DNA of 53,223 nucleotides, from positions 1 through 53,223 of the IMG/VR virus record IMGVR_UViG_3300014325_000017, one strand, 5' to 3'. The position numbers and the translations under genes were made by a program. The first letter of the stretch is position 1; the number at the start of each line of letters is the position of its first letter. Shown piece by piece: positions 2,415 to 42,865 of this stretch. The notes under the pieces were generated by a model. It was not told the DNA's origin, made no database searches, and saw only the letters and a program-made list of their open reading frames with translations. This DNA is from a virus.

Positions 2415-3126
2415 AGATACTACTCCCAAAATAGTTTATCATTCTGCTTGGTGGAACTGGTGGTGTAGGCGGATTAACTCCCCACGGTCCTTCCCATTTC
2501 GTTCCTCTAGCCCATTGTCCAGGAACACTTACGTCTTTATTGGATGTGCTATTACCATTGTTTGAAGTTTTCTTTTCAGTCTTACCAGTCTTACCTTTAG
2601 CACCATCCTGGCCAGAAGCTTTCTCTGGTGGTAGATCAGTTTGCTTTAGTGTTACCTTTTTAATTTTGCGTAGTGTTGCATTTATCTGAAGCCATTGACC
2701 ACCAGTGTTGTTACTATTAGAGCGGTCAAGAGTGAGAGTGGTAAAAGCCATTTCTTCATAACGGCCTAATCCAGTAACAACAGTAATAGGCTTGCGATCT
2801 TTATGCATAGTTCTAAGCTGATCAATAGCATTGATCAATTTAGAATAACACAGTGGACCAAACTCAACTCCGAATGATCCACCGGAAGAAATAGATTGAG
2901 CAATACCAGACAAAGATATTTGAGATGAGCCGGCAGAGATAGCACCAGTTATAGTTATCTCTTCTTGGTTCTGAACAATGTGGTCACTAATTTCCCCATC
3001 GCCTGTTTCAATGGGATACATAGTAACTTTACTTGGTAGATTAATTTGTTCAGATACTAGCACATCAAGGAACAAAGCCCCCAATTGGCTTTGCTGATTT
3101 TGGAAGAACATACTGAACAAACTCAA
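2398..3126 (-). CDS. Dit-like phage tail / baseplate hub protein
   Basis: The product has 242 residues. The N-terminal 150 residues (LDVLVSEQINLPSKVTMYPIETGDGEISDHIVQNQEEITITG, shown here only as landmarks: YPIETGDGEISDHI and EEITITG) match the Dit-like N-terminal domain of contractile baseplates. A flexible Lys/Ser/Asn-rich linker (about 155-195) precedes a Pro-rich stretch (VNPPTPPVPPSR). The TTG at 3126 has AAGGGAC about 10 nt upstream; an ATG at 3111 is an alternative. Located between tape measure and plug, it likely links tube to baseplate. Confidence 0.7.
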   Translation of the reverse strand: MSLFSMFFQNQQSQLGALFLDVLVSEQINLPSKVTMYPIETGDGEISDHIVQNQEEITITGAISAGSSQISLSGIAQSISSGGSFGVEFGPLCYSKLINAIDQLRTMHKDRKPITVVTGLGRYEEMAFTTLTLDRSNSNNTGGQWLQINATLRKIKKVTLKQTDLPPEKASGQDGAKGKTGKTEKKTSNNGNSTSNKDVSVPGQWARGTKWEGPWGVNPPTPPVPPSRMINYFGSSIFATAH

Positions 3127-3256
3127 AGATCAATGTCCCTTCTTGTTTGCATTTGTTACAGTTGTAGCCATAGTAAGTAATGCCATGCCTAATACATTCA
3201 TTGCGTTGCAGCTTCGGTTCTGGGCATAGAGGTAACGATTTGTTTGGCAATTGCAT
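3065..3256 (-). CDS. Possible small zinc-ribbon-like ORF between tape measure and Dit-like genes
   Basis: A 63-residue frame bridges the 71-nt gap between the tape measure stop (3198) and the Dit-like start (3126), overlapping both. It has CIRHGITYYGYNCNKC, a Cys/His pattern compatible with metal binding. Against it: no clear ribosome site, and an alternative 22-codon frame beginning at the ATGA overlap of the tape measure stop (MNVLGMALLTMATT) could be used instead. Tentative. Confidence 0.3.
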   Translation of the reverse strand: MQLPNKSLPLCPEPKLQRNECIRHGITYYGYNCNKCKQEGTLIFEFVQYVLPKSAKPIGGFVP

Positions 3257-5102
3257 CAGACGTTGCCTTCCCTATATCCGTCAGCTTTTGCTGAATAATA
3301 CTAGCGACCATTGATTGATCTTCTGTAGTGACGGTTATATTGTTCGTTGGACTATGGTTAACAGTAACGCTCTGATTACGGTTATCAGTTGTCGATGGTT
3401 TAGCTAATGCACCAGGACCAATTTTAGTTGGGTCTGTTACTTCTGCTCCTGGCGCTGCACTTGGCCACAACCATTCGCCAAGCTTACCCATTCCTGGCTT
3501 CATATATTTGAATGATTGGAAAGTATCAGAAAGCCATTTGTCAATACTCTCAGCTGTCTTATCTTGGGCTTTATTGATGCTTGGAAAATGCTTGTCGATA
3601 TATTGTTGTGTATACTCGAAAGCTAATCCAAATCCAAGACCAGAAGCCGGACCACCAAACTTAGTAGTAACTCTTGGACCACCACCAGCTAAAGGTAATG
3701 CACCTTGTCCTGATGGAACGGGTTCAGTAGCAGGAGTTGGTTTTGCACCTTTACCACCAACAGCATCAGCGGCAGGTTTACCACCAGCTACAACATCTTT
3801 TGCGGCAGTTAATGCACGGCCAAGCGGCCTTAGTATTGTTAGCCAAGTGCCGAACAAAAATCCAACAGCTATAACAGCACCACCTATTGCCAAAACTTTT
3901 GCGCTAGTATCCTCAAGTAATATATTGAAGTCTTTTAAAGCAGCCGACCAATCTCCCTTAACAAGATCAGCAATAAATCTTGGTCCAGCAAATATATCAA
4001 GCTTCTTAAAGTTCTCTGTGAGTTGATCGAATGGGCCTACCCAAGAACCAATAAACGAACCTTTACCTTGTATCCAATAAACCAAATCTTGAATAGCAAA
4101 ACCAACAGCAACAATAGAGGCAGCTAGCAATATCCAAGGCCAATTAGCAGCAAGTGTTGCCGCCGCCCATCTACCTGTCCATATAGTTGCTAGAGTTAAC
4201 TGGCGAATAAGCCAAGGACCAAGAGCAACAGCAAGAGCATAACCAAGAACTTCTACTAGTTGCTTGATTTGAATGACTTCACGATTGAACCACTTAATGC
4301 CATTAACAATTATATCAACCAACCATTTAATGGTTGTTCCTAATATAACCGATACTCTTGTTGTCTTAAGTAGCTCCGCAATTAATGGCGTTATTTGATT
4401 GCGCGCATAAGCAAATGCGCGGCCTATTGTATATGGCGCTTTAGAAAATCGTTCATTTAATGCTTCACTTGGTCTAGCCAAAGCTTGCATAAAAACTTCA
4501 GCAGTTATCTTACCTTCTTTAGCTAATGCTCTTAGTCCATCTTCATCTGTTTTAAAGTATTCTTCAAGTAAGACCAATGCAGATTGAGAGGCGTTCTGTA
4601 GCATTCCAATCATTCTTGGAGATGCTTTACCCATTACGTCTATACGCTCAATAAGAGCAAACATCCTTTGCGATTGCTCTTCAGAAGCCTTGTCTACTCT
4701 TAAGGCTTTATAAACGTTCTCAGTTGCTCTAAGTAAATCCTCTTGGGATAACTTACCTTCACGACTGTTCTGCAAGAACTCTCTAAAGGTATCAGCTACC
4801 TTAGCATATTCAACACCTAACGCATTTGCTATTTCAAGCGTGCGATCCATCGCAGCGTTAACCTCATCTTGTGGTCTAGCAAGATTGTTTAACTGCGAAC
4901 GTATCTTGTTTATTTCTTTACCAGTATCTAATAGCCCATCAATAAACTCATAGATTTTTTCAGCACCAAACGCTAGACCCATTGCGCTAGCAAAGCCTAG
5001 CGTCATACTTTTTATGCGTTGAAAGCCAGCCTCATATTGATTGAGTCCGGCTTCATCAACCTTATAGCCAAGCGTCGTTATTAATGTGCGAACAATCGCC
5101 AT
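3198..5102 (-). CDS. Tail tape measure protein
   Basis: The product has 634 residues. The N-terminus (VRTLITTLGYKVDEAGLNQYE) and the helical region that follows are typical of tape measures of this group. Several hydrophobic segments occur around residues 280-350 and 410-430 (VLGYALAVALGPWLI, WILLAASIVAVGFAI, VLAIGGAVIAVGFLFG). A Gly/Pro/Ala-rich linker lies near 440-480. The C-terminus has VNHSPTNNITVTTEDQSMV, a common tape measure ending. It sets tail length. Its ATG overlaps the preceding TAA (TAATG). Confidence 0.9.
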   Translation of the reverse strand: MAIVRTLITTLGYKVDEAGLNQYEAGFQRIKSMTLGFASAMGLAFGAEKIYEFIDGLLDTGKEINKIRSQLNNLARPQDEVNAAMDRTLEIANALGVEYAKVADTFREFLQNSREGKLSQEDLLRATENVYKALRVDKASEEQSQRMFALIERIDVMGKASPRMIGMLQNASQSALVLLEEYFKTDEDGLRALAKEGKITAEVFMQALARPSEALNERFSKAPYTIGRAFAYARNQITPLIAELLKTTRVSVILGTTIKWLVDIIVNGIKWFNREVIQIKQLVEVLGYALAVALGPWLIRQLTLATIWTGRWAAATLAANWPWILLAASIVAVGFAIQDLVYWIQGKGSFIGSWVGPFDQLTENFKKLDIFAGPRFIADLVKGDWSAALKDFNILLEDTSAKVLAIGGAVIAVGFLFGTWLTILRPLGRALTAAKDVVAGGKPAADAVGGKGAKPTPATEPVPSGQGALPLAGGGPRVTTKFGGPASGLGFGLAFEYTQQYIDKHFPSINKAQDKTAESIDKWLSDTFQSFKYMKPGMGKLGEWLWPSAAPGAEVTDPTKIGPGALAKPSTTDNRNQSVTVNHSPTNNITVTTEDQSMVASIIQQKLTDIGKATSDAIAKQIVTSMPRTEAATQ

Positions 5103-5287
5103 TAAATTTTTTCACGCACAACGATAACCAATTCAGAACTAGGATTAAAGCTTGGAAGCAACCGGATTATTTGTGGCGCTAATCCAGCTTGAACAAGGTT
5201 TTCAAATTCAGGTTGCAGAAGTTGGTTCTTCTTAAGTATATCTTCAAACGCATCTGCTGTTTGTGAAAGGCATTCTTCAGGCGACAT
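5102..5287 (-). CDS. Small conserved tail protein upstream of tape measure
   Basis: A 61-residue protein. The ATG at 5287 has GGGG 8 nt upstream and begins MSPEECLSQTADAFEDIL; the longer open frame from 5311 would lie inside the chaperone extension and is less likely. It sits between the tail chaperone pair and the tape measure, and its stop overlaps the tape measure ATG. I do not recognise a family. Predominantly helical, ending with SELVIVVREKI. Confidence 0.6.
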   Translation of the reverse strand: MSPEECLSQTADAFEDILKKNQLLQPEFENLVQAGLAPQIIRLLPSFNPSSELVIVVREKI

Positions 5288-5288
5288 A

Positions 5289-5914
5289 CTACGTTCCCCT
5301 TTTAGCTTCATCCATTTCTCTCTGCTCCATAGCGGATCGCATATCCATTAGAGCGTTGAGCTTTAACAAATCAATTACATCAACCTCCCCATTCTTGACT
5401 TCGCTAATGCTAACTAATCCCTCTAATATTGGTCGCCAGATAAATATCTCTTCAGCAAAATCTTCACGCAGAACACCTAATGAATTGCCGTGCTTTCTTG
5501 GACCTGACCAATAAGGGTTCTGCCTCGCGTAAAAAGATCAGCGTAATTATACCTCAATACTTCAAAGACAATATATACAACATCGTATATACCATCTATC
5601 GCCATGTTTAATGCGCCTTCATCAAGCCTTGAAGGTTCAGAGTTATCAATAACAACTGAAACAAAATCAGGGTTCAATACCTTCTTAACAAGATCAACTA
5701 GTGAATCTCCATCTAAGCTTTTAGAGATTTGGTTAACAGCAGTATTAAGAGCCTCGGAGTTAGCTTCCGCATCTCTTGCCTCCATGATAGCAGCCAATGG
5801 TGCAAGAAACTTCTTCTGAACTTCACCTAATACTTTCAATGAAAGGAATGCATCAAATCTCCTAACGTAAACTCTATTGCCGTTATCAAGTTTAAACTCG
5901 TGTCTTGTCGGCAT
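5289..5914 (-). CDS. Tail assembly chaperone, long form by predicted -1 frameshift
   Basis: Slipping -1 at CTTTTTA (5530-5536) joins ...NYADLF to YARQNPYWSGPRKHGNS and then LGVLREDFAEEIFIWRPILEG, running about 80 codons to a TAG at 5291-5289. The extension has no good start of its own, exactly fills the otherwise empty 165-nt gap, and is protein-like. This is the organisation of lambda G/GT-type chaperone pairs, where a minor frameshift product is essential for tail length control. The heptamer is not a perfect X XXY YYZ site, so the exact slip point is inferred. Confidence 0.75.
5477..5914 (-). CDS. Tail assembly chaperone, short form
   Basis: The product has 145 residues, starting MPTRHEFKLDNGNRVYVRRFDAF, with a helical middle and ending GQVQESTAIH. 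It lies between the tube protein and the tape measure, the standard position of tail assembly chaperones that hold the tape measure during tube polymerisation. Near its 3' end, at 5530-5536, the coding strand reads CTTTTTA, a slippery run from which the -1 frame gives a long in-frame extension (separate entry). The ATG overlaps nothing and follows the tube gene by 3 nt. Confidence 0.8.
   Translation of the reverse strand: MPTRHEFKLDNGNRVYVRRFDAFLSLKVLGEVQKKFLAPLAAIMEARDAEANSEALNTAVNQISKSLDGDSLVDLVKKVLNPDFVSVVIDNSEPSRLDEGALNMAIDGIYDVVYIVFEVLRYNYADLFTRGRTLIGQVQESTAIH
5530..5536 (-). promoter_or_regulatory. Predicted -1 ribosomal slippery site
   Basis: The coding strand reads GAT CTT TTT ACG. 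A -1 slip on the T5 run gives GAT CTT TTT TAC GCG and enters the extension frame. This supports expression of the long chaperone. Confidence 0.6.
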
Positions 5915-5917
5915 AAG

Positions 5918-6373
5918 TTATGCCGCCTGTGAGAATGCATTACCACCAATCATATATACAGATGGATTACCAGTATGAATAGCCCACGCGCGCGTAGCTA
6001 CTTCTTTGCCAAATTCTGCTGTGGCAGGCTTAACAATCCAAGCAGAAGATGCGGCAAACAAAGTTTCACCACACAAGTCTTGCACAAGGATTGGTCCCAT
6101 TAGACCACCACAAGTTAGAATGTCAGTGCTGAACATAGTAGAAAGAAAGTCATTGGAAATAGAAGTCTGTTGTAGAGTAACAGTTACCGTGCAACGTCTA
6201 TCTGAATTAACAGCACGGGCAATCTCACCATCAGCACCAACTTGGGTAGTCACGCCATCGTTCTGCATTTCAATACTTACAAATGTCCCATCAGCATAAC
6301 CCGTCAATGGAACACCATTAAACACAACCAAAATCTTAGCTGCATTGTAAGTGCGAACAACACCATTAGGCAT
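5918..6373 (-). CDS. Tail tube protein (DUF3277-like)
   Basis: A 151-residue protein with the beta-rich pattern of phage tubes: VPLTGYADGTFVSIEMQNDG near the start, then RRCTVTVTLQQTSISNDFLS. It immediately follows the sheath gene, the usual sheath-tube order. A GGGAGA lies 5-6 nt before the ATG. It polymerises into the inner tail tube through which DNA passes. Length and order fit the DUF3277 family well. Confidence 0.8.
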   Translation of the reverse strand: MPNGVVRTYNAAKILVVFNGVPLTGYADGTFVSIEMQNDGVTTQVGADGEIARAVNSDRRCTVTVTLQQTSISNDFLSTMFSTDILTCGGLMGPILVQDLCGETLFAASSAWIVKPATAEFGKEVATRAWAIHTGNPSVYMIGGNAFSQAA

Positions 6374-6386
6374 TCACTGTCTCCCC

Positions 6387-7481
6387 TTATGCTGCGACAG
6401 AAGCAACTGGCAAGTTCTCGTAAGTCAAGGTTCCCTGTATTTGCACAACATGAATTGCGCCAGCAAGCCTAGCAGTAAAGTATACATCTTGCAGGATACG
6501 TGTTGCCTTTACATTAGGTGGAACTGTAGCTGCAAGTGGAACAGAGATTGTATAACTTGGGATAATGTTACCATCCAGGTCTACTTCTGCCGGTGCAATG
6601 CCACCACGGAAGACGCCACGATCCAATGATTGCTGTAGTCTAGAGCGAATAACAGCAATGCCAGGGTCAGTATAAGGAATACGGTTATCAACCAACTGTT
6701 GAAAGATATTGACTTTGATTTCATCGCAAAGCCAATCACGGAAACGGATTACATCAATCCATTCTCCACCAGCAGTCTTACCATTTTGAGTAATAGCTAT
6801 ATTGCGGAATGGTTCAAATGTATTGCCGTTCTTAGCAAATACATTTTGTGCTGTTGTCTCTGGCAAGAACAAGGAATCAACATTGGTCAAACGTTGATTA
6901 GCCCAAGTCTCCTGGCCCGGATATTTGGTGAAACTCTTAGCAGCGATAGCAACATCAGGAAACTCTTCAGGTTCCGAATGATACCACCATGCGGTCCTAA
7001 AGAGATTGGCTGTCTTCAATGTTGCTGCTGTTGATGTAGTATCTGTGCCAGCGGCAGACGCATTAGTAGGATCAGACAAAACAGTTACGAAAATCTTTTC
7101 ATGAGCCTCAACCCAATTACCGATATCTTCTGCTCTAGTTTCATTGTGAGTTACATCACAGATACCATACCAATCGGAGTTCTCATCAATCAATGCTGAC
7201 AAGTCATCAGCAACAAGAGCAGCATTGTTATCCTTACCAATGAACAATCTTGGTGGATGTGGGATTTGACTAAAGAATACTTGTGCAGCTAGATAAATTG
7301 GATCAGTAGCAACAACGCCAAAATCGTCAATAAGTTGATCAGCATCGGTAATAATATTAACAACACTTCCATCACTGGACGTATACGGTCCGAACAAAAG
7401 CAAGTCCGAAAAGTTAAGTGAGGTAATACCCGCCGTCTGTAGAGAGATTTGAACATTTACCACACGATCAATGTTAGCCAT
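6387..7481 (-). CDS. Contractile tail sheath protein (DUF3383-like)
   Basis: A 364-residue protein starting MANIDRVVNVQISLQTAGI, with LLLFGPYTSSDGSVVNIITDADQ and the motif VAAQVFFSQ-type segment (IYLAAQVFFSQIPHPPRLFIG). The C-terminal part has RLQQSLDRGVFRGGIAP and a beta-rich end (VVQIQGTLTYENL). These are hallmarks of DUF3383 sheath-like proteins. Its presence defines the phage as a myovirus morphotype. GGGAG precedes the ATG. Confidence 0.85.
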   Translation of the reverse strand: MANIDRVVNVQISLQTAGITSLNFSDLLLFGPYTSSDGSVVNIITDADQLIDDFGVVATDPIYLAAQVFFSQIPHPPRLFIGKDNNAALVADDLSALIDENSDWYGICDVTHNETRAEDIGNWVEAHEKIFVTVLSDPTNASAAGTDTTSTAATLKTANLFRTAWWYHSEPEEFPDVAIAAKSFTKYPGQETWANQRLTNVDSLFLPETTAQNVFAKNGNTFEPFRNIAITQNGKTAGGEWIDVIRFRDWLCDEIKVNIFQQLVDNRIPYTDPGIAVIRSRLQQSLDRGVFRGGIAPAEVDLDGNIIPSYTISVPLAATVPPNVKATRILQDVYFTARLAGAIHVVQIQGTLTYENLPVASVAA

Positions 7482-7496
7482 TACAGTCTCCCGTTG

Positions 7497-7988
7497 TTAA
7501 CCCATTCTCCGAGCAGCCATGAAGCCATGTGCTGTAACTGTGCCTTGGTCAGCGTCAGCATATACACCAAGATATACTGTAGTTGTAGTTGATACACTAA
7601 GTCTAGTTGGTGGTAACGTTAATGAAGTCGTCATACCTGCCGATGCTGTAGAATTGGTTGCTAACCCACCATTAGTTCCATCAGGTTCAGTTACAGCAAC
7701 AGTATTAATCCAACTTCTTACTTCCATGTTACTGCTTTGAGTAGTGCTCTGAAAGTAAGAAGCGCCAACAATATCCCAATCACCTATGCCTAAATCCATA
7801 GTAACTAGATCAACCCTAGTTTGATTGGTCAAAGTTATCCTGGCCCCAGGAGCTACTGAGTTATTAACATACGTTCCTATAACTTGTAGTGCTTCAATTT
7901 CATCTTTCGCATGTTGGAAGTTTTGCCTTACATCTATTGTAAGAGCTTCACCTTGAGGTGGTTTAGTCGGATCAATTTGACTGGACAT
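7497..7988 (-). CDS. Structural protein with tail-fibre-type N-terminus
   Basis: A 163-residue protein. The N-terminus (MSSQIDPTKPPQGEALTIDVRQNFQ) is closely similar in pattern to that of the split fibre gene at 49621-50779 ([20 protein letters not shown]). The rest is Ser/Thr-rich and beta-like, ending in TVTAHGFMAARRMG. It lies between the neck/terminator and sheath genes. The shared N-terminus suggests a common attachment or trimerisation module. A decoration or neck-fibre role is inference. Confidence 0.65.
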   Translation of the reverse strand: MSSQIDPTKPPQGEALTIDVRQNFQHAKDEIEALQVIGTYVNNSVAPGARITLTNQTRVDLVTMDLGIGDWDIVGASYFQSTTQSSNMEVRSWINTVAVTEPDGTNGGLATNSTASAGMTTSLTLPPTRLSVSTTTTVYLGVYADADQGTVTAHGFMAARRMG

Positions 7989-35794: not shown

Positions 35795-36565
35795 TGTAAT
35801 CGAAACAGCAACCATCGGCGCCGATAGCCATAGGCACGATAGGTAGGCGTAGTAGGATCGCGCAATCCGATGTGAAGCCTATCAATCTCCGCGAGCCTGT
35901 CAACGGGTTGCGCGCACTGCGCGCCAGGAGTATGATCACACTCACGTTGAACGGGGTCCAACATGAACGACACATCTTAATCGGGTTTCCATTACAACGT
36001 ATATGCAACCATCATACATTAGTAGATGTATGAGTATATACGCTTGCCTACTGTAAAGTAGGACAGCATGGCTACCCTAATCCTGCTCACGGTTCTGTGA
36101 GCCTATGATCACGATTTCGTGATCACTTGCCCCTAGGAGCAGGCTACAGCCCCTCCCTAGGCGTGGCCGCATGTCCCCTAGCTCCTGACCCCTTCCCTGG
36201 CTCCTAGTGCCCGTTCCACGGGCCTTCCTGGCCCCTAGGCTCCGCTCCTGGCGCTGGCTGTCAACCCCCCGAGGCTGGCGATCCTGGCTCCTGCCAGGGA
36301 GCACAACCATAAGCTGAACTACCCCCTTGTTTATTCCGCTGGCGTTTGGTATAAGGTTCTTGGCTACTGAGAGTTTCAGTAGCGTCTACCTGATCTTTGA
36401 TAATCGAATCAGACGAAGCGGAGCAGCACAAACGCCTTAGCGTTTGCGCGGTGGCAGTGAAGGCACAACTAGCGTAGCCGACAAATTCCATCGCGCAAAT
36501 CTGGTTTGTATCTGCAAGCGTAGCGCAGTGATGCGCCATGTCCCCTTTGTCGCGGTTCACACTCT
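35795..36565. other. Control region between divergent operons: hairpin cluster and GC-rich degenerate repeats
   Basis: No convincing gene. Hairpins: CATACAT/ATGTATG (36007-36026), CCTACT/AGTAGG (36047-36062), GCTCAC/GTGAGC (about 36086-36103), TGATCACG/CGTGATCA (about 36106-36125), GCTACTGA/TCAGTAGC (about 36363-36383) and CAAACGC/GCGTTTG (about 36429-36446). Between 36130 and 36300 is a GC-rich block of degenerate repeats of CCCCTAG, CTCCTGGC and CCTAGGAGC, quite unlike the rest of the genome. Short frames here (62-103 codons on the minus strand) lack ribosome sites. Candidate origin or control locus. Confidence 0.5.
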
Positions 36566-36670: not shown

Positions 36671-36690
36671 GTGGTGCAGCAATGCGCCAC
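36671..36690 (+). repeat. Hairpin preceding ribozyme 1
   Basis: GTGGTGC pairs with GCGCCAC (one U-G pair) around AGCAAT, ending 6 nt before the cleavage site of ribozyme 1. Unlike later modules it does not use the CTCCTGGCG word. Confidence 0.5.
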
Positions 36691-36741
36691 GCTGTTTCAG
36701 GATGTGTATCCTGACTGATGATTGCGAAAGCATGAAACAGC
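36691..36741 (+). ncRNA. Type III hammerhead ribozyme 1
   Basis: Core CTGATGA and GAAA are intact. Stem III GCTGT/ACAGC, stem I TCAGGAT/ATCCTGA with GTGT loop, stem II closed by a GAAA loop (TGC/GCA). Predicted cleavage after 36696 (GUU). It releases the first cassette mRNA, whose ATG is 76 nt downstream. Confidence 0.9.
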
Positions 36742-36772
36742 AAAGTTACCTATGAAAAGGATGTGTATACAA

Positions 36773-37018
36773 ATGAATAGCGAAACTAAGAGATGCAATC
36801 TCACGACAAAGCGTGACTTGTTCATTTTCATCAAGACTTGTCATCAAGTCATGATCCAAGTTCGCTTTGGCGTAAGTGAACGTTGGGTAAAGATAAGCAA
36901 GCGTGAGGCTATGGATTTGGCCAATGACTTGCCTGATAATACAGCGACATACTGTGAAATGTATTCGGGCACTTTTGGCCAATACGATTTCAAGTCTGGC
37001 AATCTTTACCTTGGATGA
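36773..37018 (+). CDS. Small early protein, cassette 1
   Basis: An 81-residue protein (MNSETKRCNLTTKRDLFIFI...), with WVKISKREAMDLANDLPDNTA near the middle. The ATG at 36773 is chosen because every other cassette has its start 67-77 nt after the cleavage site; upstream in-frame ATGs lie inside the ribozyme. AAAAGGA precedes it. Sole gene of its cassette. Function unknown; probably acts early in infection. Confidence 0.65.
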   Translation: MNSETKRCNLTTKRDLFIFIKTCHQVMIQVRFGVSERWVKISKREAMDLANDLPDNTATYCEMYSGTFGQYDFKSGNLYLG

Positions 37019-37025
37019 CTGCTTA

Positions 37026-37053
37026 AGCTCCTGGCGCAACAACGCCAGGAGCT
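37026..37053 (+). repeat. Inter-cassette stem-loop 1 (CTCCTGGCG type)
   Basis: AGCTCCTGGCG pairs with CGCCAGGAGCT around CAACAA. It begins 8 nt after the cassette 1 stop and ends 12 nt before the cleavage site of ribozyme 2. No U-tract. Confidence 0.85.
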
Positions 37054-37056
37054 AAT

Positions 37057-37114
37057 CGCTTGATACCAGGATGTGTTGTCCTGGCTGATGATTGCGAAAG
37101 CATGAAATCAAGTG
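37057..37114 (+). ncRNA. Type III hammerhead ribozyme 2
   Basis: Core CTGATGA and GAAA intact. Stem III CGCTTGAT/ATCAAGTG, stem I CCAGGA/TCCTGG, stem II TGC/GCA with GAAA loop. Predicted cleavage after 37065 (AUA). Stem I differs at its base from copy 1 (CC/GG instead of UC/GA), a compensated change. Confidence 0.92.
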
Positions 37115-37137
37115 AACTCAACCTAGGAACTATGGAA

Positions 37138-37368
37138 ATGAATAAAGCAAGACGCGCAGAGTTACAGAAGGCTTCTGATCTTCTTTCCGAGGCTCGCACT
37201 ATTCTTGAAGGTTTGCGGGATGAAGAACAGGAAGCTTTTGATAACTTGCCTGAAGGTTTGCAGGATGCGGACAAAGGCCAGACTATGCAGGATGCTATCA
37301 ACAACATGGAATACGCTATCAGCAACATAGAAGATGCTGAAAGCTCCATCAGTGATGCTGGTGCATAG
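37138..37368 (+). CDS. Conserved small coiled-coil phage protein, cassette 2
   Basis: A 76-residue acidic helical protein: MNKARRAELQKASDLLSEAR, EEQEAFDNLPEGLQ, then AINNMEYAISNIEDAESSI. This pattern is widespread in phages and mobile elements as a small protein of unknown function. ATG 72 nt after the ribozyme 2 cleavage site. Followed at 2 nt by the zinc-binding gene. Confidence 0.75.
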   Translation: MNKARRAELQKASDLLSEARTILEGLRDEEQEAFDNLPEGLQDADKGQTMQDAINNMEYAISNIEDAESSISDAGA

Positions 37369-37370
37369 TT

Positions 37371-37571
37371 ATGAAGTTTGCTGGTAAGGCTCCTGATAAA
37401 TGCGACGTATGCCACAAAGAACTAAATAAGCGGTTCGTTGATGGCAGAACCATTAGAGGGTATTGGGCTTATATGTGCTCCGAATGTCATACAAACGTTG
37501 GCATTGGATTAGGTATGGGCAAAGGCCAGGTTTTCGTATTGACAACCAAAGGCTGGATAAAGATCGACTAG
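37371..37571 (+). CDS. Small zinc-binding protein, cassette 2
   Basis: A 66-residue protein with CDVCHKEL and, 25 residues on, CSECHTN, a two-knuckle zinc site. Ends GQVFVLTTKGWIKID. The ATG lies 2 nt after the previous stop, so translation is probably coupled. Similar short zinc proteins are common in phage accessory regions; role unknown. Confidence 0.75.
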   Translation: MKFAGKAPDKCDVCHKELNKRFVDGRTIRGYWAYMCSECHTNVGIGLGMGKGQVFVLTTKGWIKID

Positions 37572-37577
37572 CATTGA

Positions 37578-37622
37578 TGCAATTCAACTAGGATGCTTCA
37601 CGGTATCCTAGCTTGAATTGCA
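37578..37622 (+). repeat. Long unique stem-loop
   Basis: TGCAATTCAACTAGGAT pairs with ATCCTAG and TTGAATTGCA (one bulged C) around a 10-nt loop. It occupies the position taken by CTCCTGGCG hairpins elsewhere, ahead of a degenerate ribozyme-like segment. Confidence 0.7.
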
Positions 37623-37662
37623 CCAGTTCTAGTAAGGCTGGCATTGCAATGAAGCAATGAAA
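37623..37662 (+). other. Hammerhead-like remnant
   Basis: The segment has CCAG...CTGG in place of stem I, then CATTGC/GCAATG in place of stem II and GAAAC after it, as in intact copies, but CTGATGA is replaced by CTGGCA. Probably inactive. The next ATG (37690) and AT-rich leader follow as in other cassettes. Confidence 0.4.
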
Positions 37663-37689
37663 CTTAACCTAGTGAAAGTGAAATATACA

Positions 37690-38319
37690 ATGTCATATAC
37701 AGTGGACAACAACGGAACCAATGGCGTGTTGCTGGTTTCTACCCGTCAACATCCGGGTGAAATCATCAAGACAGGTGGCGTGCTAATGCCATCAGCCAAG
37801 GTCAATCGCAATCGTATTGAGACAACCACTAAGTGGGTTGTTTGCTGCGATGAAGTCAATAATAACGCTTTTCTTATTGGCAAGATCGACAAGGTTCTTT
37901 GGATTGGTGAAGGCGAAAACAATCAGTGCGTAGTTAAGATTTCTGAGTATGCACAGATTAACAAAGAAGACGTTTGGACTGACTACGGTGCAAAGAAGTA
38001 TGCTTGGACCTATCTGGATAACCCAAGCGTATGCAAGATGCGGCCGGGTAAATATCAGTTCTTCCCAATTGGTCGTGTTCCCTTTGGCACGATGGCTAAG
38101 ACATTCAACAAGCCTGAAGCCAAGCCTGAGACTGCTAGAGCCTCTTCTATTGAGACTGAAGTTAAGAAGTCTGAACCTGTTATCGTTGAACAGGTCAAGC
38201 TTGATGCTGGTGACTTAAGAGCGATCATTGCCAAGGGTTACGGCATTGATCGTAAACATGTCATGTCGGCGGAAGTTGTCATCAAGTTTGGTGAGCAGAC
38301 AGTTACCATCAAAGGATGA
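37690..38319 (+). CDS. Hypothetical protein
   Basis: A 209-residue protein. Start MSYTVDNNGTN is chosen because the leader before it (CCTAGTGAAAGTGAAATATACA) matches those of other cassettes; an ATG at 37657 lies in the remnant. N-terminal 120 residues are alpha/beta with TKWVVCCDEVNNNAFLIGKID and VLWIGEGENNQ. A Pro/Glu/Lys-rich linker precedes a C-terminal LDAGDLRAIIAKGYGIDRKHV. No family recognised. Confidence 0.65.
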   Translation: MSYTVDNNGTNGVLLVSTRQHPGEIIKTGGVLMPSAKVNRNRIETTTKWVVCCDEVNNNAFLIGKIDKVLWIGEGENNQCVVKISEYAQINKEDVWTDYGAKKYAWTYLDNPSVCKMRPGKYQFFPIGRVPFGTMAKTFNKPEAKPETARASSIETEVKKSEPVIVEQVKLDAGDLRAIIAKGYGIDRKHVMSAEVVIKFGEQTVTIKG

Positions 38320-38329
38320 TTATGAGAAC

Positions 38330-38353
38330 GCTCCTGGCCCAACAGCCAGGAGC
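38330..38353 (+). repeat. Inter-cassette stem-loop 2
   Basis: GCTCCTGGC pairs with GCCAGGAGC around CCAACA. The arms vary from the standard word but remain complementary. Ends 13 nt before the next cleavage site. Confidence 0.8.
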
Positions 38354-38356
38354 TAC

Positions 38357-38415
38357 TTCCCTGATATCAGACTGTGTAGTCTGACTGATGATTGCGAAAG
38401 CATGAAATCAGGGAG
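38357..38415 (+). ncRNA. Type III hammerhead ribozyme 3
   Basis: Core intact. Stem III TTCCCTGAT/ATCAGGGAG. Stem I is TCAGACT/AGTCTGA instead of TCAGGAT/ATCCTGA: both strands changed together, preserving all pairs. Stem II TGC/GCA with GAAA loop. Cleavage after 38366 (AUA). Confidence 0.93.
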
Positions 38416-38437
38416 CCTAGGAAACAAGGAAATACAG

Positions 38438-38713
38438 ATGAAACCGAGTGAATGGAAAAAGTGGAACGATAACGAAAAGCGTGAGTATGCTTTAGCGTTG
38501 CGTTCCACTTTTCGCGGTAAACTTGTTATGGGCAAAGCATTGGCTAAAGCAGTAATGGTTATGCGTAAAGAAGAACTATTAGAAGGATCAACCCTTGAAG
38601 ATATAGAAATGCTTGGCTTGTTATACGAGCCTTGGTTCTCTTATTATCTAACAGAAAGTGAAATGATAGCTGGCCTAGTAGAACTTGCAGAACAGAATGC
38701 AGAACAGGGATAA
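38438..38713 (+). CDS. Hypothetical small protein, cassette 3
   Basis: A 91-residue helical protein (MKPSEWKKWNDNEKREYALA..., GKALAKAVMVMRKEELLEGS, LYEPWFSYYLTESEMIAG). AAGGAAATACAG precedes the ATG, 71 nt after the ribozyme 3 cleavage site. Sole gene of its cassette. Function unknown. Confidence 0.7.
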   Translation: MKPSEWKKWNDNEKREYALALRSTFRGKLVMGKALAKAVMVMRKEELLEGSTLEDIEMLGLLYEPWFSYYLTESEMIAGLVELAEQNAEQG

Positions 38714-38720
38714 TCACATT

Positions 38721-38748
38721 ACTCCTGGCGCACACCAGCGCCAGGAGT
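38721..38748 (+). repeat. Inter-cassette stem-loop 3
   Basis: ACTCCTGGCGC pairs with GCGCCAGGAGT around ACACCA. Begins 7 nt after the cassette 3 stop; ends 15 nt before the ribozyme 4 cleavage site. Confidence 0.87.
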
Positions 38749-38755
38749 AAGCTTG

Positions 38756-38810
38756 TCTTGATATCAGGATGTGTATCCTGACTGATGAGTCCGAAAGGAT
38801 GAAATCGGGA
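38756..38810 (+). ncRNA. Type III hammerhead ribozyme 4
   Basis: Core intact. Stem III TCTTGAT/ATCGGGA (two G-U pairs), stem I TCAGGAT/ATCCTGA, stem II TCC/GGA with GAAA loop. Cleavage after 38763 (AUA). Stem II differs from copies 1-3 (TGC/GCA) with pairing kept. Confidence 0.92.
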
Positions 38811-38840
38811 TAAGTCAATCTAGTGAAAGGAAAACGAAAC

Positions 38841-39035
38841 ATGGAAATCAAGCGGCTTCTTAAAAAGATTGAAAGTCTTGAAGAGAAACTTATTGAAAAG
38901 ATTGAAAGTCTTGAAGAGAAGCTTAGTGAGACTTTGCGTGGTGATGATGAGTTAGAGGTTCGCGTTGATATGTTGGAAGACGAACTTGATGCAATCAAAG
39001 CTGCATTGGCAAAGGTAGTAAACAAAGATGCTTAA
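38841..39035 (+). CDS. Coiled-coil protein with tandem repeat, cassette 4
   Basis: A 64-residue protein, almost entirely coiled coil. It contains a tandem 11-residue repeat, KIESLEEKLIE then KIESLEEKLSE, with matching DNA repeats. GAAAGGAAAA precedes the ATG, 77 nt after cleavage. Its end overlaps the secreted protein gene by 8 nt. Possible oligomeric partner of the downstream envelope proteins. Confidence 0.7.
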   Translation: MEIKRLLKKIESLEEKLIEKIESLEEKLSETLRGDDELEVRVDMLEDELDAIKAALAKVVNKDA

Positions 39036-39252
39036 GACTCTACTGTTCAGCTTCCTTCTTATCGGAATGGCAAATGCAGAAACCAGAATCACCAAAGATA
39101 GCATGGGATATACTCATTATTCTGGTGATGTTAATGGGAAGTCTCATAACGATAGTATGGGCTATAGCCATTATGACTTTCATAGTAACGGGAATACACA
39201 GCATTGTCGCTCTAGCAGAGTTGGCAATTCGGTAAACTTCCGCTGTTACTAG
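39028..39252 (+). CDS. Small secreted protein with repeats, cassette 4
   Basis: A 74-residue protein with a clear signal peptide (MLKTLLFSFLLIGMANA). The mature part carries two copies of DSMGY(T/S)HY within a His/Asn/Ser-rich chain and two Cys near the C-terminus (QHCRSSRVGNSVNFRCY), which could form a disulphide in the periplasm. It overlaps the coiled-coil gene. A periplasmic or outer-surface role, such as blocking superinfection, is speculative. Confidence 0.7.
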   Translation: MLKTLLFSFLLIGMANAETRITKDSMGYTHYSGDVNGKSHNDSMGYSHYDFHSNGNTQHCRSSRVGNSVNFRCY

Positions 39253-39262
39253 GAGATTGGTT

Positions 39263-39385
39263 ATGCGATTGGCTCTTGTCTTGTTCCTGTTTGGTGTTCT
39301 CATAATGACAGTGTTCATTATGGATACGCCTTATAGAACTTGCTTCCCATCAGCCGTAGGCCAAGAGTGTTACGAGAGAAAATGA
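39263..39385 (+). CDS. Small membrane protein, cassette 4
   Basis: A 40-residue protein (MRLALVLFLFGVLIMTVFIM...) with one membrane helix and a short tail containing two Cys (RTCFPSAVGQECYERK). GGAGA lies 7 nt before the ATG. Too short for standard ORF cut-offs but neatly packed; its stop overlaps the next ATG (ATGA). Unknown function, probably periplasm-facing tail. Confidence 0.65.
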   Translation: MRLALVLFLFGVLIMTVFIMDTPYRTCFPSAVGQECYERK

Positions 39386-39456
39386 GCGACTGGACAAGAC
39401 TACAGATAGGTATCATCGGTATACTCTTGCTGATAATCCTATATGCAATACTCTAG
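39382..39456 (+). CDS. Tiny membrane protein, cassette 4
   Basis: A 24-residue peptide (MSDWTRLQIGIIGILLLIIL...) that is essentially a single membrane helix. The ATG overlaps the previous stop (ATGA). Ends just before the next stem-loop. Possibly an accessory subunit of the upstream small membrane protein. Confidence 0.55.
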   Translation: MSDWTRLQIGIIGILLLIILYAIL

Positions 39457-39461
39457 CTAAA

Positions 39462-39486
39462 CTCCTGGCGCACAAAGCGCCAGGAG
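39462..39486 (+). repeat. Inter-cassette stem-loop 4
   Basis: CTCCTGGCGC pairs with GCGCCAGGAG around ACAAA. Ends 13 nt before the ribozyme 5 cleavage site. Confidence 0.87.
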
Positions 39487-39491
39487 CGTTC

Positions 39492-39546
39492 TCCTGATAT
39501 CAGGATGTGTATCCTGACTGATGATTCCTAAAGGATGAAATCGGGA
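39492..39546 (+). ncRNA. Type III hammerhead ribozyme 5
   Basis: Core intact. Stem III TCCTGAT/ATCGGGA, stem I TCAGGAT/ATCCTGA, stem II TCC/GGA with TAAA loop. Cleavage after 39499 (AUA). Confidence 0.92.
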
Positions 39547-39569
39547 ACCTAGGAAGCAAGGAAATACAA

Positions 39570-39827
39570 ATGACAAAGAAGTTTGATCTAATTGTTGAGG
39601 GTAAGTCTGAAGACATTACTAAGGTTGCCCCACATCTATTAGAATTGAACGGACTTGTTTGGAATGAAGAGTTCCCTCCTGATGTTGTAATACTCGAAAC
39701 GGTTACATCAGGAAATAACCCAATCGTTCTGACCAAGCTTGGCAGATACCTAACCGCTGGTGACCAATACGGTTATCGTGTTGCAACAGTAGCCAAGCTT
39801 GTTAATGGTCAACTTGTGAAAGTGTGA
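39570..39827 (+). CDS. Hypothetical small protein, cassette 5
   Basis: An 85-residue alpha/beta protein (MTKKFDLIVEGKSEDITKVA..., TSGNNPIVLTKLGRYLTAGD). CAAGGAAATACAA precedes the ATG, 70 nt after cleavage. Followed at 1 nt by a tiny membrane protein. No family recognised. Confidence 0.65.
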   Translation: MTKKFDLIVEGKSEDITKVAPHLLELNGLVWNEEFPPDVVILETVTSGNNPIVLTKLGRYLTAGDQYGYRVATVAKLVNGQLVKV

Positions 39828-39828
39828 A

Positions 39829-39906
39829 ATGGGGGACTTAATAGTTCCCTTCATCATGATAGCTTTTGTTCTAGCTATACTGATGTATCTACTACTGAAG
39901 CAGTGA
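39829..39906 (+). CDS. Tiny membrane protein, cassette 5
   Basis: A 25-residue single-helix peptide (MGDLIVPFIMIAFVLAILMY...). Its ATG is 1 nt after the previous stop. Similar in size and style to the peptide at 39382-39456, suggesting a recurring type of small membrane peptide in this region. Confidence 0.5.
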   Translation: MGDLIVPFIMIAFVLAILMYLLLKQ

Positions 39907-39912
39907 CATGGC

Positions 39913-39937
39913 TCCTGGCGCACACAAAGCGCCAGGA
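39913..39937 (+). repeat. Inter-gene stem-loop without ribozyme
   Basis: TCCTGGCGC pairs with GCGCCAGGA around ACACAAA. The usual hammerhead is absent; the next gene starts 21 nt downstream with TAAGGAAAATACGA as leader. This shows that hairpin and ribozyme can occur separately. Confidence 0.85.
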
Positions 39938-39957
39938 CTAATGTAAGGAAAATACGA

Positions 39958-40260
39958 ATGATTTGGGTAATGCTACATCCCGAGTTCACGCCTGAGATGT
40001 TGGGGTTCATTCCAAGTTTCTTGGATGACAACGATCCACGATCAGCCAAGGAACAGATACACGCCAACTACATATCCGGCTGGAACAAGTTTGAAGGTTT
40101 CAAGTTGATGGATAACTTATCCCTGATGTATCCAGGCGATCCACGGTTACCGCCTATGGCAACAACTGCTCTACGTGATGAGGTTATTATCTACTACCCT
40201 TACTCTTGGGTTGTGATACTTCAGAAAGATGGAACCTATGAAGTAGCAAGGTTGGACTGA
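39958..40260 (+). CDS. Conserved phage protein, cassette 5
   Basis: A 100-residue protein with HPEFTPEMLGFIPSFLDDND near the start, an AKEQIHANYISGWNKFEGF middle and YSWVVILQKDGTYEVARLD at the end. This is a recognisable, widespread phage family of unknown function. TAAGGAAAATACGA precedes the ATG. Downstream gene overlaps by 1 nt. Confidence 0.75.
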   Translation: MIWVMLHPEFTPEMLGFIPSFLDDNDPRSAKEQIHANYISGWNKFEGFKLMDNLSLMYPGDPRLPPMATTALRDEVIIYYPYSWVVILQKDGTYEVARLD

Positions 40261-40439
40261 TGGGTAACAAACTGTTTGACCCTAATTGGGGTGATGACTC
40301 TAAATCCTACACGCCTGAAGAAATTGAAGAGGCTAAACGTAGGTTCAGACGCAACGATCTAATCTTTATCACTGTTGCTCTTGGTTGTTGTGGCTTCTTC
40401 ATTGTGTTCTGGTTGTATATACTACTGATTGTTCACTGA
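40260..40439 (+). CDS. Small membrane protein, cassette 5
   Basis: A 59-residue protein: a charged N-terminal 35 residues (SYTPEEIEEAKRRFRRNDL) and a C-terminal membrane helix (IFITVALGCCGFFIVFWLYIL). The ATG shares one base with the previous TGA. Ends just before the next stem-loop. Confidence 0.65.
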   Translation: MGNKLFDPNWGDDSKSYTPEEIEEAKRRFRRNDLIFITVALGCCGFFIVFWLYILLIVH

Positions 40440-40443
40440 TAAA

Positions 40444-40471
40444 ACTCCTGGCGCACACAAGCGCCAGGAGT
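40444..40471 (+). repeat. Inter-cassette stem-loop 5
   Basis: ACTCCTGGCGC pairs with GCGCCAGGAGT around ACACAA. Ends 12 nt before the ribozyme 6 cleavage site. Confidence 0.87.
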
Positions 40472-40474
40472 GAC

Positions 40475-40531
40475 TTCCTGATAAGAGAATGTGTATTCTC
40501 TCTGATGAGTCCGAAAGGATGAAATCAGGAA
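40475..40531 (+). ncRNA. Type III hammerhead ribozyme 6
   Basis: Core intact. Stem III TTCCTGAT/ATCAGGAA, stem I AGAGAAT/ATTCTCT (both strands changed relative to copy 1), stem II TCC/GGA with GAAA loop. Cleavage after 40483 (AUA). Confidence 0.93.
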
Positions 40532-40555
40532 CAAGATAACCTAGGAAACAAGGAA

Positions 40556-40747
40556 ATGGATGAATACGCTGAAAGGCTAGAAAAGCTATTTGATGAGTAT
40601 ATACGCGAGCATAGTATGAACCGCTTACTACGTCTTGAAGTATATCAATCATGGAAGAAACTGATACAACTTGGAGAACAACAACTAGTAATGGATCAGA
40701 TAGATGATGTTGTCATTCATCTTAAGAAGAGAATAGGTGACAGCTAA
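40556..40747 (+). CDS. Hypothetical small helical protein, cassette 6
   Basis: A 63-residue helical protein (MDEYAERLEKLFDEYIREHS..., WKKLIQLGEQQLVMDQIDDV). The ATG is 72 nt after cleavage with AAGGA close upstream. Its TAA overlaps the next ATG (TAATG). No family recognised. Confidence 0.65.
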   Translation: MDEYAERLEKLFDEYIREHSMNRLLRLEVYQSWKKLIQLGEQQLVMDQIDDVVIHLKKRIGDS

Positions 40748-40950
40748 TGCCTCCCTATCCAAGACGCTACGGGATTAGGCAAGAGTCGCCTTGTCCGTGT
40801 GGTAGTGGATACACTGCCAGTCCGGTCTATGATGCACGTAGCATCTTTGTATTCTTTGCTTGCAAGAAGTGTGACGCAGAGAAACGCAAAGCCTATAGAC
40901 CGGAAATCTTCACTGATCCTAACTATGAAACTAGTGAGGATATTGAATGA
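40747..40950 (+). CDS. Conserved zinc-binding phage protein, cassette 6
   Basis: A 67-residue protein with SPCPCGSGYTASPVYDARSI and FACKKC, a four-Cys site, and ending YRPEIFTDPNYETSEDIE. The combination of PVYDARGIF-like and YRPEIFTDPNY motifs is common in phage and mobile element genes of unknown function. Coupled to both neighbours. Confidence 0.75.
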   Translation: MPPYPRRYGIRQESPCPCGSGYTASPVYDARSIFVFFACKKCDAEKRKAYRPEIFTDPNYETSEDIE

Positions 40951-41075
40951 CCAACAGAATGCGTTGGATATTGCTAGCCTTGTTGTTTGGCATGGCTATC
41001 ACGTTCAGCGCTATCATGGCCCACTATTGGCCGCACAAGGATTGCGTCCAAATGGGAGAATATAGTTGTGAGTAA
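40947..41075 (+). CDS. Small membrane protein, cassette 6
   Basis: A 42-residue protein (MTNRMRWILLALLFGMAITFSA...) with one membrane helix and a C-terminal tail holding two Cys (KDCVQMGEYSCE). The tail resembles that of the small protein at 39263-39385 (TCFPS...QECYE), suggesting a shared exported Cys pair. The ATG overlaps the previous stop (ATGA). Confidence 0.65.
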   Translation: MTNRMRWILLALLFGMAITFSAIMAHYWPHKDCVQMGEYSCE

Positions 41076-41187
41076 GAAGAAGCGTAAGACGTTCACTAAG
41101 AGAATAAAAGCGTCAAGCAATCCAGGTGGAAAGCGACGCATCATCAAAGCAATCAAAGCAACTGGCAAGAGAACTGGAATAAGGTAG
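41068..41187 (+). CDS. Small basic protein, cassette 6
   Basis: A 39-residue, highly basic peptide (GTG start; VSKKKRKTFTKRIKASSNPG...), overlapping the end of the membrane protein gene. The charge suggests nucleic-acid binding. The longer frame from 40987 is out-of-phase overlap with the membrane gene and is unlikely. Confidence 0.6.
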   Translation: MSKKKRKTFTKRIKASSNPGGKRRIIKAIKATGKRTGIR

Positions 41188-41193
41188 ACTATG

Positions 41194-41216
41194 CTCCTGG
41201 CGCACAACGCCAGGAG
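41194..41216 (+). repeat. Inter-cassette stem-loop 6
   Basis: CTCCTGGCG pairs with CGCCAGGAG around CACAA. Ends 13 nt before the ribozyme 7 cleavage site. Confidence 0.87.
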
Positions 41217-41220
41217 TGAC

Positions 41221-41277
41221 TTCCTGATATCAGGATGCGTATCCTGACTGATGATTCCTAAAGGATGAAATCAGGGA
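41221..41277 (+). ncRNA. Type III hammerhead ribozyme 7
   Basis: Core intact. Stem III TTCCTGAT/ATCAGGGA, stem I TCAGGAT/ATCCTGA with GCGT loop, stem II TCC/GGA with TAAA loop. Cleavage after 41229 (AUA). Confidence 0.92.
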
Positions 41278-41296
41278 AGCCAGTAAAGGAAACAAC

Positions 41297-42340
41297 ATGA
41301 AAAGAGCAAGAATTGAACTAGGTCTAAATGAGTTCAAGTTCAAACCCGTAACTGTATCTATGTTACGGGATGCTGTCTTTGGGCGTAGGATATTCAGTGG
41401 TCCTGGCTTTATTGAAGAATACATGCCAAGAGAAACTGAAATCAATACGTTGAATGATATGGCTCGCTATGCTGTTGACCGTGGTCAAGTGATAGACTTT
41501 GGTTACTGGCCAAATAGCTTCATTCAAGAGACTGCAAGACGTGTAGGGCGTTTGTATACACAAGGTGCATTGCCAATGCCGTTCACTACGCCTTGGATAT
41601 TTCTACACTCCTGGCGTGATGAAAAGAAGGAAGCTGAACTTTTAAAAGAGTTCAGGTTGACTGAGAAAGAACTACTAGATGTGCAAACAAGTGCATACCT
41701 TATTCATCCAATACCAGGAGAAAAAGGCCAGCATTGCATAGACTTTGAGGGTTGTTGCTTAGAAGGCTTTCAGATAAAAGGTCTAGACTTTCTTGGCGTT
41801 GGTGATCGCATCTTCTTTGATGCTGAAAAAAGTCATCAGAGTGATGATGAATACTACGTTCAATGTGTTCCGATGCAATGGCGCTTTGGTGATGTGCTTA
41901 ACGGTTATCCTGGCATGGAAAAAGTCTATGGCTGGACTGATCCAGAGCAAGCCGCTGTAGGCAATATCTGCGATCCTTTGGTAACAGCACTAGCTTTGCT
42001 GAATACCAGAGGCATTGAACAGGAAACCATTAGCGTATCTGAGAGACTGAACAAAGCCAGAGCTAAGAACAAGAAGCCACTTATACCACCATACAGGAAG
42101 GTGAACAGTGCAACCTATATAGCTGCACTACGCCACCATGACAGGCAACGTGGTGAACCTACTGGCGATAAGCGGGCATCTCCTGCAATGCACGTCAGGT
42201 TGGGTCATTGGCGACACTATAAAAAGGGAGAAAGAACATTCATTTACGATACCTTGGTTGCTGCAACACCAGAAACTAAGGAAGCCTTTCGCGCCGCGCG
42301 TAGTCACTATTCAGTTAAGAAGACAACCGAAAACACATAA
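41297..42340 (+). CDS. Conserved phage protein, cassette 7
   Basis: A 347-residue protein, the largest of the rightward region. N-terminal MKRARIELGLNEFKFKPVTV; a middle section with WIFLHSWRDEKKEAELLKEF; C-terminal RLNKARAKNKKPLIPPYRKV then SPAMHVRLGHWRHYKKGERTF, a His-rich block I have seen in many phage hypothetical proteins. AAAGGAAACAAC precedes the ATG, 67 nt after cleavage. Function unknown. Confidence 0.75.
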   Translation: MKRARIELGLNEFKFKPVTVSMLRDAVFGRRIFSGPGFIEEYMPRETEINTLNDMARYAVDRGQVIDFGYWPNSFIQETARRVGRLYTQGALPMPFTTPWIFLHSWRDEKKEAELLKEFRLTEKELLDVQTSAYLIHPIPGEKGQHCIDFEGCCLEGFQIKGLDFLGVGDRIFFDAEKSHQSDDEYYVQCVPMQWRFGDVLNGYPGMEKVYGWTDPEQAAVGNICDPLVTALALLNTRGIEQETISVSERLNKARAKNKKPLIPPYRKVNSATYIAALRHHDRQRGEPTGDKRASPAMHVRLGHWRHYKKGERTFIYDTLVAATPETKEAFRAARSHYSVKKTTENT

Positions 42341-42840: not shown

Positions 42841-42865
42841 CTCCTGGCGCACAAACGCCAGGAGC
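42840..42865. terminator. Stem-loop between convergent genes (CTCCTGGCG type)
   Basis: GCTCCTGGCG pairs with CGCCAGGAGC around CACAAA. It starts at the last base of the plus gene stop and lies 6 nt before the minus gene stop. Likely serves as shared 3' end structure for both strands. Confidence 0.8.

Follow-up and report, generated by a model that had tools for sequence, protein, structure and literature searches.

Seven predicted hammerhead ribozymes, six of them behind a nearly constant hairpin, as candidate RNA punctuation between gene cassettes of a tailed phage

Since 2011 it has been asked what hammerhead ribozymes do for the phages that carry them. The 53,223-bp virus record IMGVR_UViG_3300014325_000017 of IMG/VR (here called the window, at its full length) raises that question seven times over, since a first-pass annotation made from its letters alone had proposed seven type III hammerheads within an accessory region of rightward genes. 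What would a phage gain from cutting its own RNA at so many gene borders? With a probability of roughly two in three, we read the seven cis-acting elements as co-transcriptional RNA punctuation between gene cassettes. The array would provide seven natural replicates in one transcript, with a ribozyme-less hairpin as a built-in control.

Detection and identity of the seven hammerheads

The window was scanned with a descriptor that required CUGANGA, a stem I of at least 4 bp, a stem II of at least 3 bp, a stem III of at least 4 bp, GAA-A15.1 with A15.1 paired to U16.1, and any H17 other than G. Exactly seven matches were returned on the plus strand, spread over 4.6 kb, with predicted cuts identical in position to the seven of the first-pass annotation (Table 1). 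No match was found on the minus strand or in 200 dinucleotide shuffles of the whole window. The order of parts is the same in all seven, III-U-H-(cut)-I-loop-I'-CUGAUGA-II-loop-II'-GAAA-III', with stems I and II closed by loops and stem III open, and both the CUGAUGA and GAAA core and U16.1 are intact in 7/7, so that the proposed cores, the three pairable stems and the type III layout all stand. H17 is A in six copies and U in copy 1. The pair closing stem II (10.1-11.1) is U-U in five copies, G-U in two and the consensus G-C in none; G10.1-C11.1 is the usual consensus and not a requirement, and U-U or G-U closing does not exclude membership among the hammerheads.

The stems differ between copies in a manner that keeps them paired. 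Stem I reads TCAGGA/TCCTGA, CCAGGA/TCCTGG, TCAGAC/GTCTGA or AGAGAA/TTCTCT, stem II reads TGC/GCA or TCC/GGA, and the sequence of stem III also varies. Across the seven copies standard pairs occupy 95% of pair cells (81.5% when shuffled), and two-sided changes are found in 9 of 17 pairs (shuffled mean 3.2). The loop I sequence TGTGT recurs among the relatives, and loop II is a tetraloop rich in A; this suggests a tertiary contact between the two loops. The loose core pattern by itself matched 12 times against 4.6 expected, only mildly above chance; it is not strong evidence and was not used, and the proof lies in the stems.

The Rfam hammerhead models, which the first-pass annotation had named as a check, gave a divided answer. 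At the gathering threshold Rfam matched none of the seven copies, and at a relaxed threshold RF00008 recovered copy 4 (E=4.2e-4), copy 6 (E=0.27) and copy 5 (E=1.7). The window hammerheads score 19.5-32.2 bits with RF00008 against a gathering cut-off of 48.5, a score passed in 0/14 records searched, including contigs and phages that bear the same motif. This cut-off is a library threshold, not a biochemical criterion, and the miss is probably explained by the U-U or G-U closing of stem II together with the short loop II. Current RNA-family thresholds thus miss this phage hammerhead subtype.

With a covariance model built from the seven window copies (R1), 104 sequences from phage contigs other than the window were recovered at E<=0.01. 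In these relatives 93.8% of cells are paired (60.5% when shuffled), and two-sided changes number 516 versus 153. A second model, built solely from the 104 non-window sequences, recovered all seven copies at E=1e-19 to 7e-18, the next-best window match reaching only E=0.27; the 104 had been gathered by the window-derived pattern and model, so their letters are independent of the window and their selection is not. On this sequence evidence we regard the seven elements as confirmed type III hammerhead ribozymes, with self-cleavage predicted.

Hairpins in front of the cut, in the window and in other phages

The most informative additional feature, absent from the first-pass annotation, is a hairpin before copies 2-7. 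It is perfect in each case, CTCCTGGC(GC)-loop-(GC)GCCAGGAG, has 9-13 bp and ends 11-13 nt before the cut, and its outer pairs change together (AGCTCC/GGAGCT, TTACTCC/GGAGTAA, ACTCC/GGAGT). Copy 1 has an unrelated hairpin, CGTGGTGCAGCAATGCGCCACG, in front, which overlaps the start of its stem III. A U-run follows the stem in none of the window hairpins, and only the one at 38719, with the tail GCTTGTCTTG, passed a loose terminator scan. For want of U-runs we rejected intrinsic terminators as the identity of these hairpins, and their 9-13 bp likewise disqualified them as RNase III sites, for which a helix of about 20 bp is required. The hairpin at 39912, which has no hammerhead, is a natural control for hairpin function.

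A hairpin in this position is also common elsewhere. In the 60 nt before stem III, folding at z<-2 was seen for 71% of 97 distinct hammerheads in other loci, compared with 16% of the matched controls, 262 hammerhead-free gene starts of the same contigs (Mann-Whitney p=2e-21, to be read loosely because the k-mer clustering was simple and the contigs are not fully independent). The position-specific contrast is sturdier than this p-value: after similar upstream sequences had been clustered, a stem of at least 8 bp lay in the adjacent 60 nt of 57/94 hammerheads, whereas eight further offsets on either side gave 14-29/94, so that the signal is restricted to these adjacent 60 nt. The hairpin sequences vary between phages, the stem often stands 5-13 nt from the cut, and TTTT follows the stem in 7/108 hairpins overall, so most are not terminators. 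A Shine-Dalgarno (SD) sequence and an open reading frame (ORF) lie within 60 nt in 66/94 clustered relatives and at 55/470 random positions.

With slightly more doubt than belief, we put forward a two-part device, in which a hairpin conserved in structure and free in sequence is followed within about 5-13 nt by a type III hammerhead cut, ahead of an SD sequence and start codon. Such a device would give one product a terminator-like 3' end and the other a 5'-OH start while transcription went on; it may occur in many phage lineages as well as in a Parcubacteria metagenome-assembled genome (MAG), and would be largely invisible to Rfam thresholds. The coupling across phages is in any case a specific and testable clue to the purpose of the cut.

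Gene context, proposed punctuation and competing explanations

The window encodes a terminase, portal, major head protein, tape measure, baseplate wedge, DNA polymerase and helicases, and is a myovirus-like contig of about 53 kb from a tailed phage with a baseplate. Most genes run leftward. A single rightward block at 36.7-42.84 kb comprises some 15-20 small ORFs, with a Pfam or PHROG match for almost none of them, and gene size, position and strand would fit the labels "early" and "accessory" given to this region. All seven hammerheads are intergenic and, as the first-pass annotation had said, lie on the coding strand of these genes and divide the block into cassettes (Table 1). The order at each border is last gene, hairpin, hammerhead, SD sequence, next gene, and in every copy an SD sequence and ATG lie 26-36 nt 3' of GAAA. 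Between 35.6 and 43.0 kb, 8 promoter-like sites were observed against 13.2 in shuffles; this deficit fits one long transcript, and a separate promoter per cassette was rejected since such sites are not in excess over chance. A stretch at 36140-36300, in the divergent region before the array, is C-rich with many CTCCTGGC/CCTAGG-like pieces; it lies near the start of both transcription directions and is a possible replication or packaging signal.

Table 1. Hammerheads, hairpins and cassettes of the rightward block (window positions; E-values from the model built on the 104 non-window sequences; closing pairs are those of stem II)
Feature	Position	Strand	Predicted cut after	E-value	Remarks
Hammerhead 1	36690..36746	+	36696	1.1e-18	H17=U; stem I 7 bp; stem II UGC/GCA with U-U; stem III 5 bp
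Cassette 1	36773..37018	+			single 81-aa ORF, no Pfam/PHROG match
Hairpin of hammerhead 2	37026..37053	+			11 bp, AGCTCCTGGCG..CGCCAGGAGCT, 12 nt to cut
Hammerhead 2	37059..37116	+	37065	1.8e-18	closing U-U
Cassette 2	37138..38319	+			ORFs 37138-37368, 37371-37571, 37657-38319; function not assigned
Hairpin of hammerhead 3	38330..38353	+			9 bp, 13 nt to cut
Hammerhead 3	38360..38416	+	38366	3.1e-19	closing U-U
Cassette 3	38438..38713	+			single 91-aa ORF; function not assigned
Hairpin of hammerhead 4	38719..38750	+			13 bp, 13 nt to cut
Hammerhead 4	38757..38813	+	38763	6.7e-18	closing G-U
Cassette 4	38841..39456	+			ORFs 38841-39035, 39028-39252, 39263-39385, 39382-39456; function not assigned
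Hairpin of hammerhead 5	39462..39486	+			10 bp, 13 nt to cut
Hammerhead 5	39493..39549	+	39499	2.3e-19	closing U-U
Cassette 5	39570..40439	+			ORFs 39570-39827, 39829-39906, 39958-40260, 40260-40439; split by the hairpin at 39912
Lone cassette hairpin	39912..39937	+			no hammerhead; SD and ATG of ORF 39958 directly 3'
Hairpin of hammerhead 6	40444..40471	+			11 bp, 12 nt to cut
Hammerhead 6	40477..40533	+	40483	1e-19	closing G-U
Cassette 6	40556..41187	+			ORFs 40556-40747, 40747-40950, 40947-41075, plus small ORF up to 41187
Hairpin of hammerhead 7	41192..41218	+			11 bp, 11 nt to cut
Hammerhead 7	41223..41279	+	41229	1.8e-18	closing U-U
Cassette 7	41297..42340	+			single 347-aa ORF, function not assigned
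Lone cassette hairpin	42841..42864	+			no hammerhead; 3' end of rightward block, facing convergent leftward genes

Within ORF 38841-39035, a 33-nt direct repeat (38856-38921, 91% identical) encodes a repeated coiled-coil-like segment.

For the array as a whole we propose the following course. A single rightward transcript, probably early, would run from about 36 kb to 42.8 kb, and each ribozyme would fold as the intergenic RNA leaves the polymerase and cut after U-A (U-U in copy 1). At copies 2-7 the upstream mRNA would be left with the 9-13 bp hairpin, an 11-13 nt tail and a 2',3'-cyclic phosphate, an end that would resemble the RNA end made by an intrinsic terminator while RNA polymerase continues, and its hairpin should slow 3' exonucleases. 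The downstream mRNA would open with the stem I hairpin, bearing a 5'-OH, some 70-80 nt ahead of the next start codon. Such an end is a poor entry point for 5'-end-dependent bacterial decay. The outcome would be a set of mono- to tetracistronic mRNAs whose stability and translation could be set separately; by analogy, the RNA itself would do what host RNase III does on the T7 early transcript.

Related phages show how such punctuation might turn over. Several proteins of this phage have counterparts in contigs L036, L086, L094, L118 and L119 (DNA polymerase identity 55% in L086 and 61% in L119; 40-43% for the 347-aa gene in relatives). These contigs carry zero to two hammerheads of R1 grade, L118 having one divergent copy, and related contigs have the CTCCTGGC hairpin at other gene borders. 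Judging from these sequences, hammerheads are gained and lost quickly and hairpins less so, and neither is bound to a given gene, which fits interchangeable punctuation better than gene-specific regulation. In L118, at the 347-aa site and one other, the CTCCTGGC hairpin is lengthened by a second covarying helix (CTAGACTGT/ACAGTCTAG; TTAAACTGT/ACAGTTTAA) and then followed by another hairpin. Its hammerhead-less gene borders at 6960-7035 and 7890-7965 show a double hairpin, CTCCTGGCC..GGCCAGGAG, with a covarying 9-bp helix, the second hairpin standing just before the SD sequence. The structures resemble the long double helices cut by RNase III and may be sites of that enzyme, or else processing elements yet to be described; an Rfam search of the hammerhead-less hairpin sites of L118 returned no known ribozyme or other Rfam RNA.

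Several observations weigh against punctuation by seven working ribozymes. In unaided minimum free energy folding all three stems formed in copies 2, 4 and 6. Competing pairings displaced stem III of copies 1, 5 and 7, and stem I, though not stem III, was lost from copy 3. Copy 1 lies at the presumed 5' end, with no upstream mRNA in need of a 3' end, and about 30-40% of the relatives lack a strong upstream hairpin. In L036, L086, L118, L119 and L120, whose DNA upstream of the 347-aa homologue was read, no hammerhead stands immediately in front of that gene. On that account we rejected the idea that hammerheads are tied to particular genes, and together with the hammerhead-less hairpin at 39912 it implies that punctuation at a given site is dispensable.

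Other explanations account for part of the same material. The hairpin might do no more than keep the upstream transcript from disturbing the fold of the ribozyme, and the ribozyme no more than shorten the leader of the next gene and so set how that gene is translated. In other phages many hairpins do stand 0-5 nt ahead of stem III, the stem III strands of the window copies are able to mispair, and leader trimming is the only obvious role for hammerhead 1 at the presumed transcript start; we nevertheless think this unlikely, because hairpins without a hammerhead at 39912, at the block end at 42841 and at L118 gene borders point to a value of the hairpin in its own right at 3' ends. Improbable as well, in our judgement, is that the repeated blocks of hairpin and hammerhead persist chiefly because they offer short DNA homologies for swapping gene cassettes between phages, self-cleavage being tolerated or a by-product. 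Covariation in all three stems, in the window and in other phages, with an invariant catalytic core argues for selection on RNA pairing and not on DNA identity; the compensatory pair changes already seen exceed neutral divergence, and recombination needs no constant coding-strand placement just before an SD sequence and start codon. What such exchange would explain is that copies are 60-78% alike over 90 nt with unrelated orphan genes between them, that relatives have hammerheads beside different genes and none beside shared ones, and that hairpin arms are identical in relatives at 40-60% protein identity.

Hammerhead ends (5'-OH and 2',3'-cyclic phosphate) are the right substrates for RtcB, and the seven predicted same-strand cuts would free six linear units, which RtcB could join into circular, long-lived mRNAs or non-coding RNAs. 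We give this little credence: most units are coding, with an SD sequence beside the start codon, a scan of window proteins that took in part of the small ORFs turned up no RNA ligase, and Perreault et al. (PMC3088659) searched in vain for spliced or circular products. That the motifs are chance matches or decayed and inactive seems hardly credible. The missing Rfam gathering match and the U-U closing mismatch in five copies would agree with it, but the descriptor found nothing in the shuffles, the stems covary, and U10.1-U11.1 is a documented active hammerhead variant (PMC3088659). Punctuation between cassettes is the reading that we prefer.

Other carriers and comparison with known systems

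We found no close whole-phage DNA relatives in INPHARED for the first 25 kb, and no match in IMG/VR to the exact hairpin-plus-hammerhead pattern of this phage. Judged by terminase, the closest named phages, at ~49-51% identity, are Rhizobium phages RHph_TM3_3_3 and RHph_N28_2 along with a phage scaffold of faecal origin, and none of them has such hammerheads. The first-pass annotation had called a tandem series unusual, a claim weakened by other cases: clusters were published in 2011 (PMC3088659), other IMG/VR phage contigs carry up to five hammerheads, and we rejected the seven copies as a record since a Parcubacteria MAG contig has ten. On that contig (L333, JANLIU010000041.1:1-8000) the ten lie within ~4 kb at 2475-6532, most directly after a GGGGATT-type hairpin, and border units, mostly non-coding and each a few hundred nt long, in which a structured element, CTTAAGT...ACTTAAGGCAGTGCTTTCGAAAGAGAGTGCTG, recurs, with no Rfam match; the whole has the look of an array from which hammerheads would release non-coding RNAs. 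A pattern scan of GTDB gave a full hammerhead at only 12/120 loci, the remainder being mostly chance matches. Hammerheads with the TGTGT loop and a G-C closing pair recur in Patescibacteria, or Candidate Phyla Radiation (L225, L265, L270, L291, L304, L312, L317 and L319; GTDB), the carriers being Vogelbacteria, Parcubacteria, Colwellbacteria, Uhrbacteria, Kaiserbacteria and Nomurabacteria, some with a hairpin immediately upstream.

Among known systems, the theta ribozymes (hepatitis delta virus-like) of gut phages are also phage self-cleaving RNAs for transcript processing, but belong to another ribozyme class and are linked to tRNA genes (PMC10879173). T7 offers an analogy only: its early RNA of ~7,000 nt is cut by RNase III at five sites into mono- and dicistronic mRNAs (PMC4858673), likewise a rightward polycistronic RNA of ~7 kb cut between genes, but T7 uses a protein enzyme and long hairpins where the window array would use self-cleaving RNA. 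RF00008 (Hammerhead_3) has a core, stems and cut site equal to those of the window copies, which score below its gathering threshold. The hammerhead of PaP3/LUZ24-like Bruynoghevirus is of type III, 90.7% identical to copy 5 over 43 nt, agrees with that copy in its TGTGT loop I and in a stem II closed by U-U, and stands directly before the first early gene. It differs in occurring as one copy per genome (R1 model, in the record searched), in a cut ~50 nt before the start codon and, unlike copies 2-7, in having only a weak hairpin in front. The ribozyme of PaP3 was reported active (PMC3088659). A LUZ24-type hammerhead was also seen in Pseudomonas phage phiKMVC5-4 (L008, MN553586.1), which is listed under Bruynoghevirus and whose phiKMV-like name looks wrong.

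The nearest precedents are the clustered prophage hammerheads flanking genes for which Perreault et al. (2011) proposed mRNA processing; three tandem sets were shown to cleave in vitro, one of them also in E. coli (PMC3088659). Like the copies here, those of the Agrobacterium ardA triple, Azorhizobium and Clostridium scindens flank single genes or short blocks on the same strand; this phage differs from them in having seven copies of one type in 4.6 kb and in the coupling of each of copies 2-7 to a hairpin of nearly constant sequence. The main text of PMC3088659 makes no mention of such coupling, and the hairpin partner of phage hammerheads appears to be previously undescribed, with priority uncertain as far as that main text goes. 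Because clusters, the U-U variant and the activity of the PaP3 ribozyme were already published, we regard this locus as a new and large case of these hammerheads rather than as a new class.

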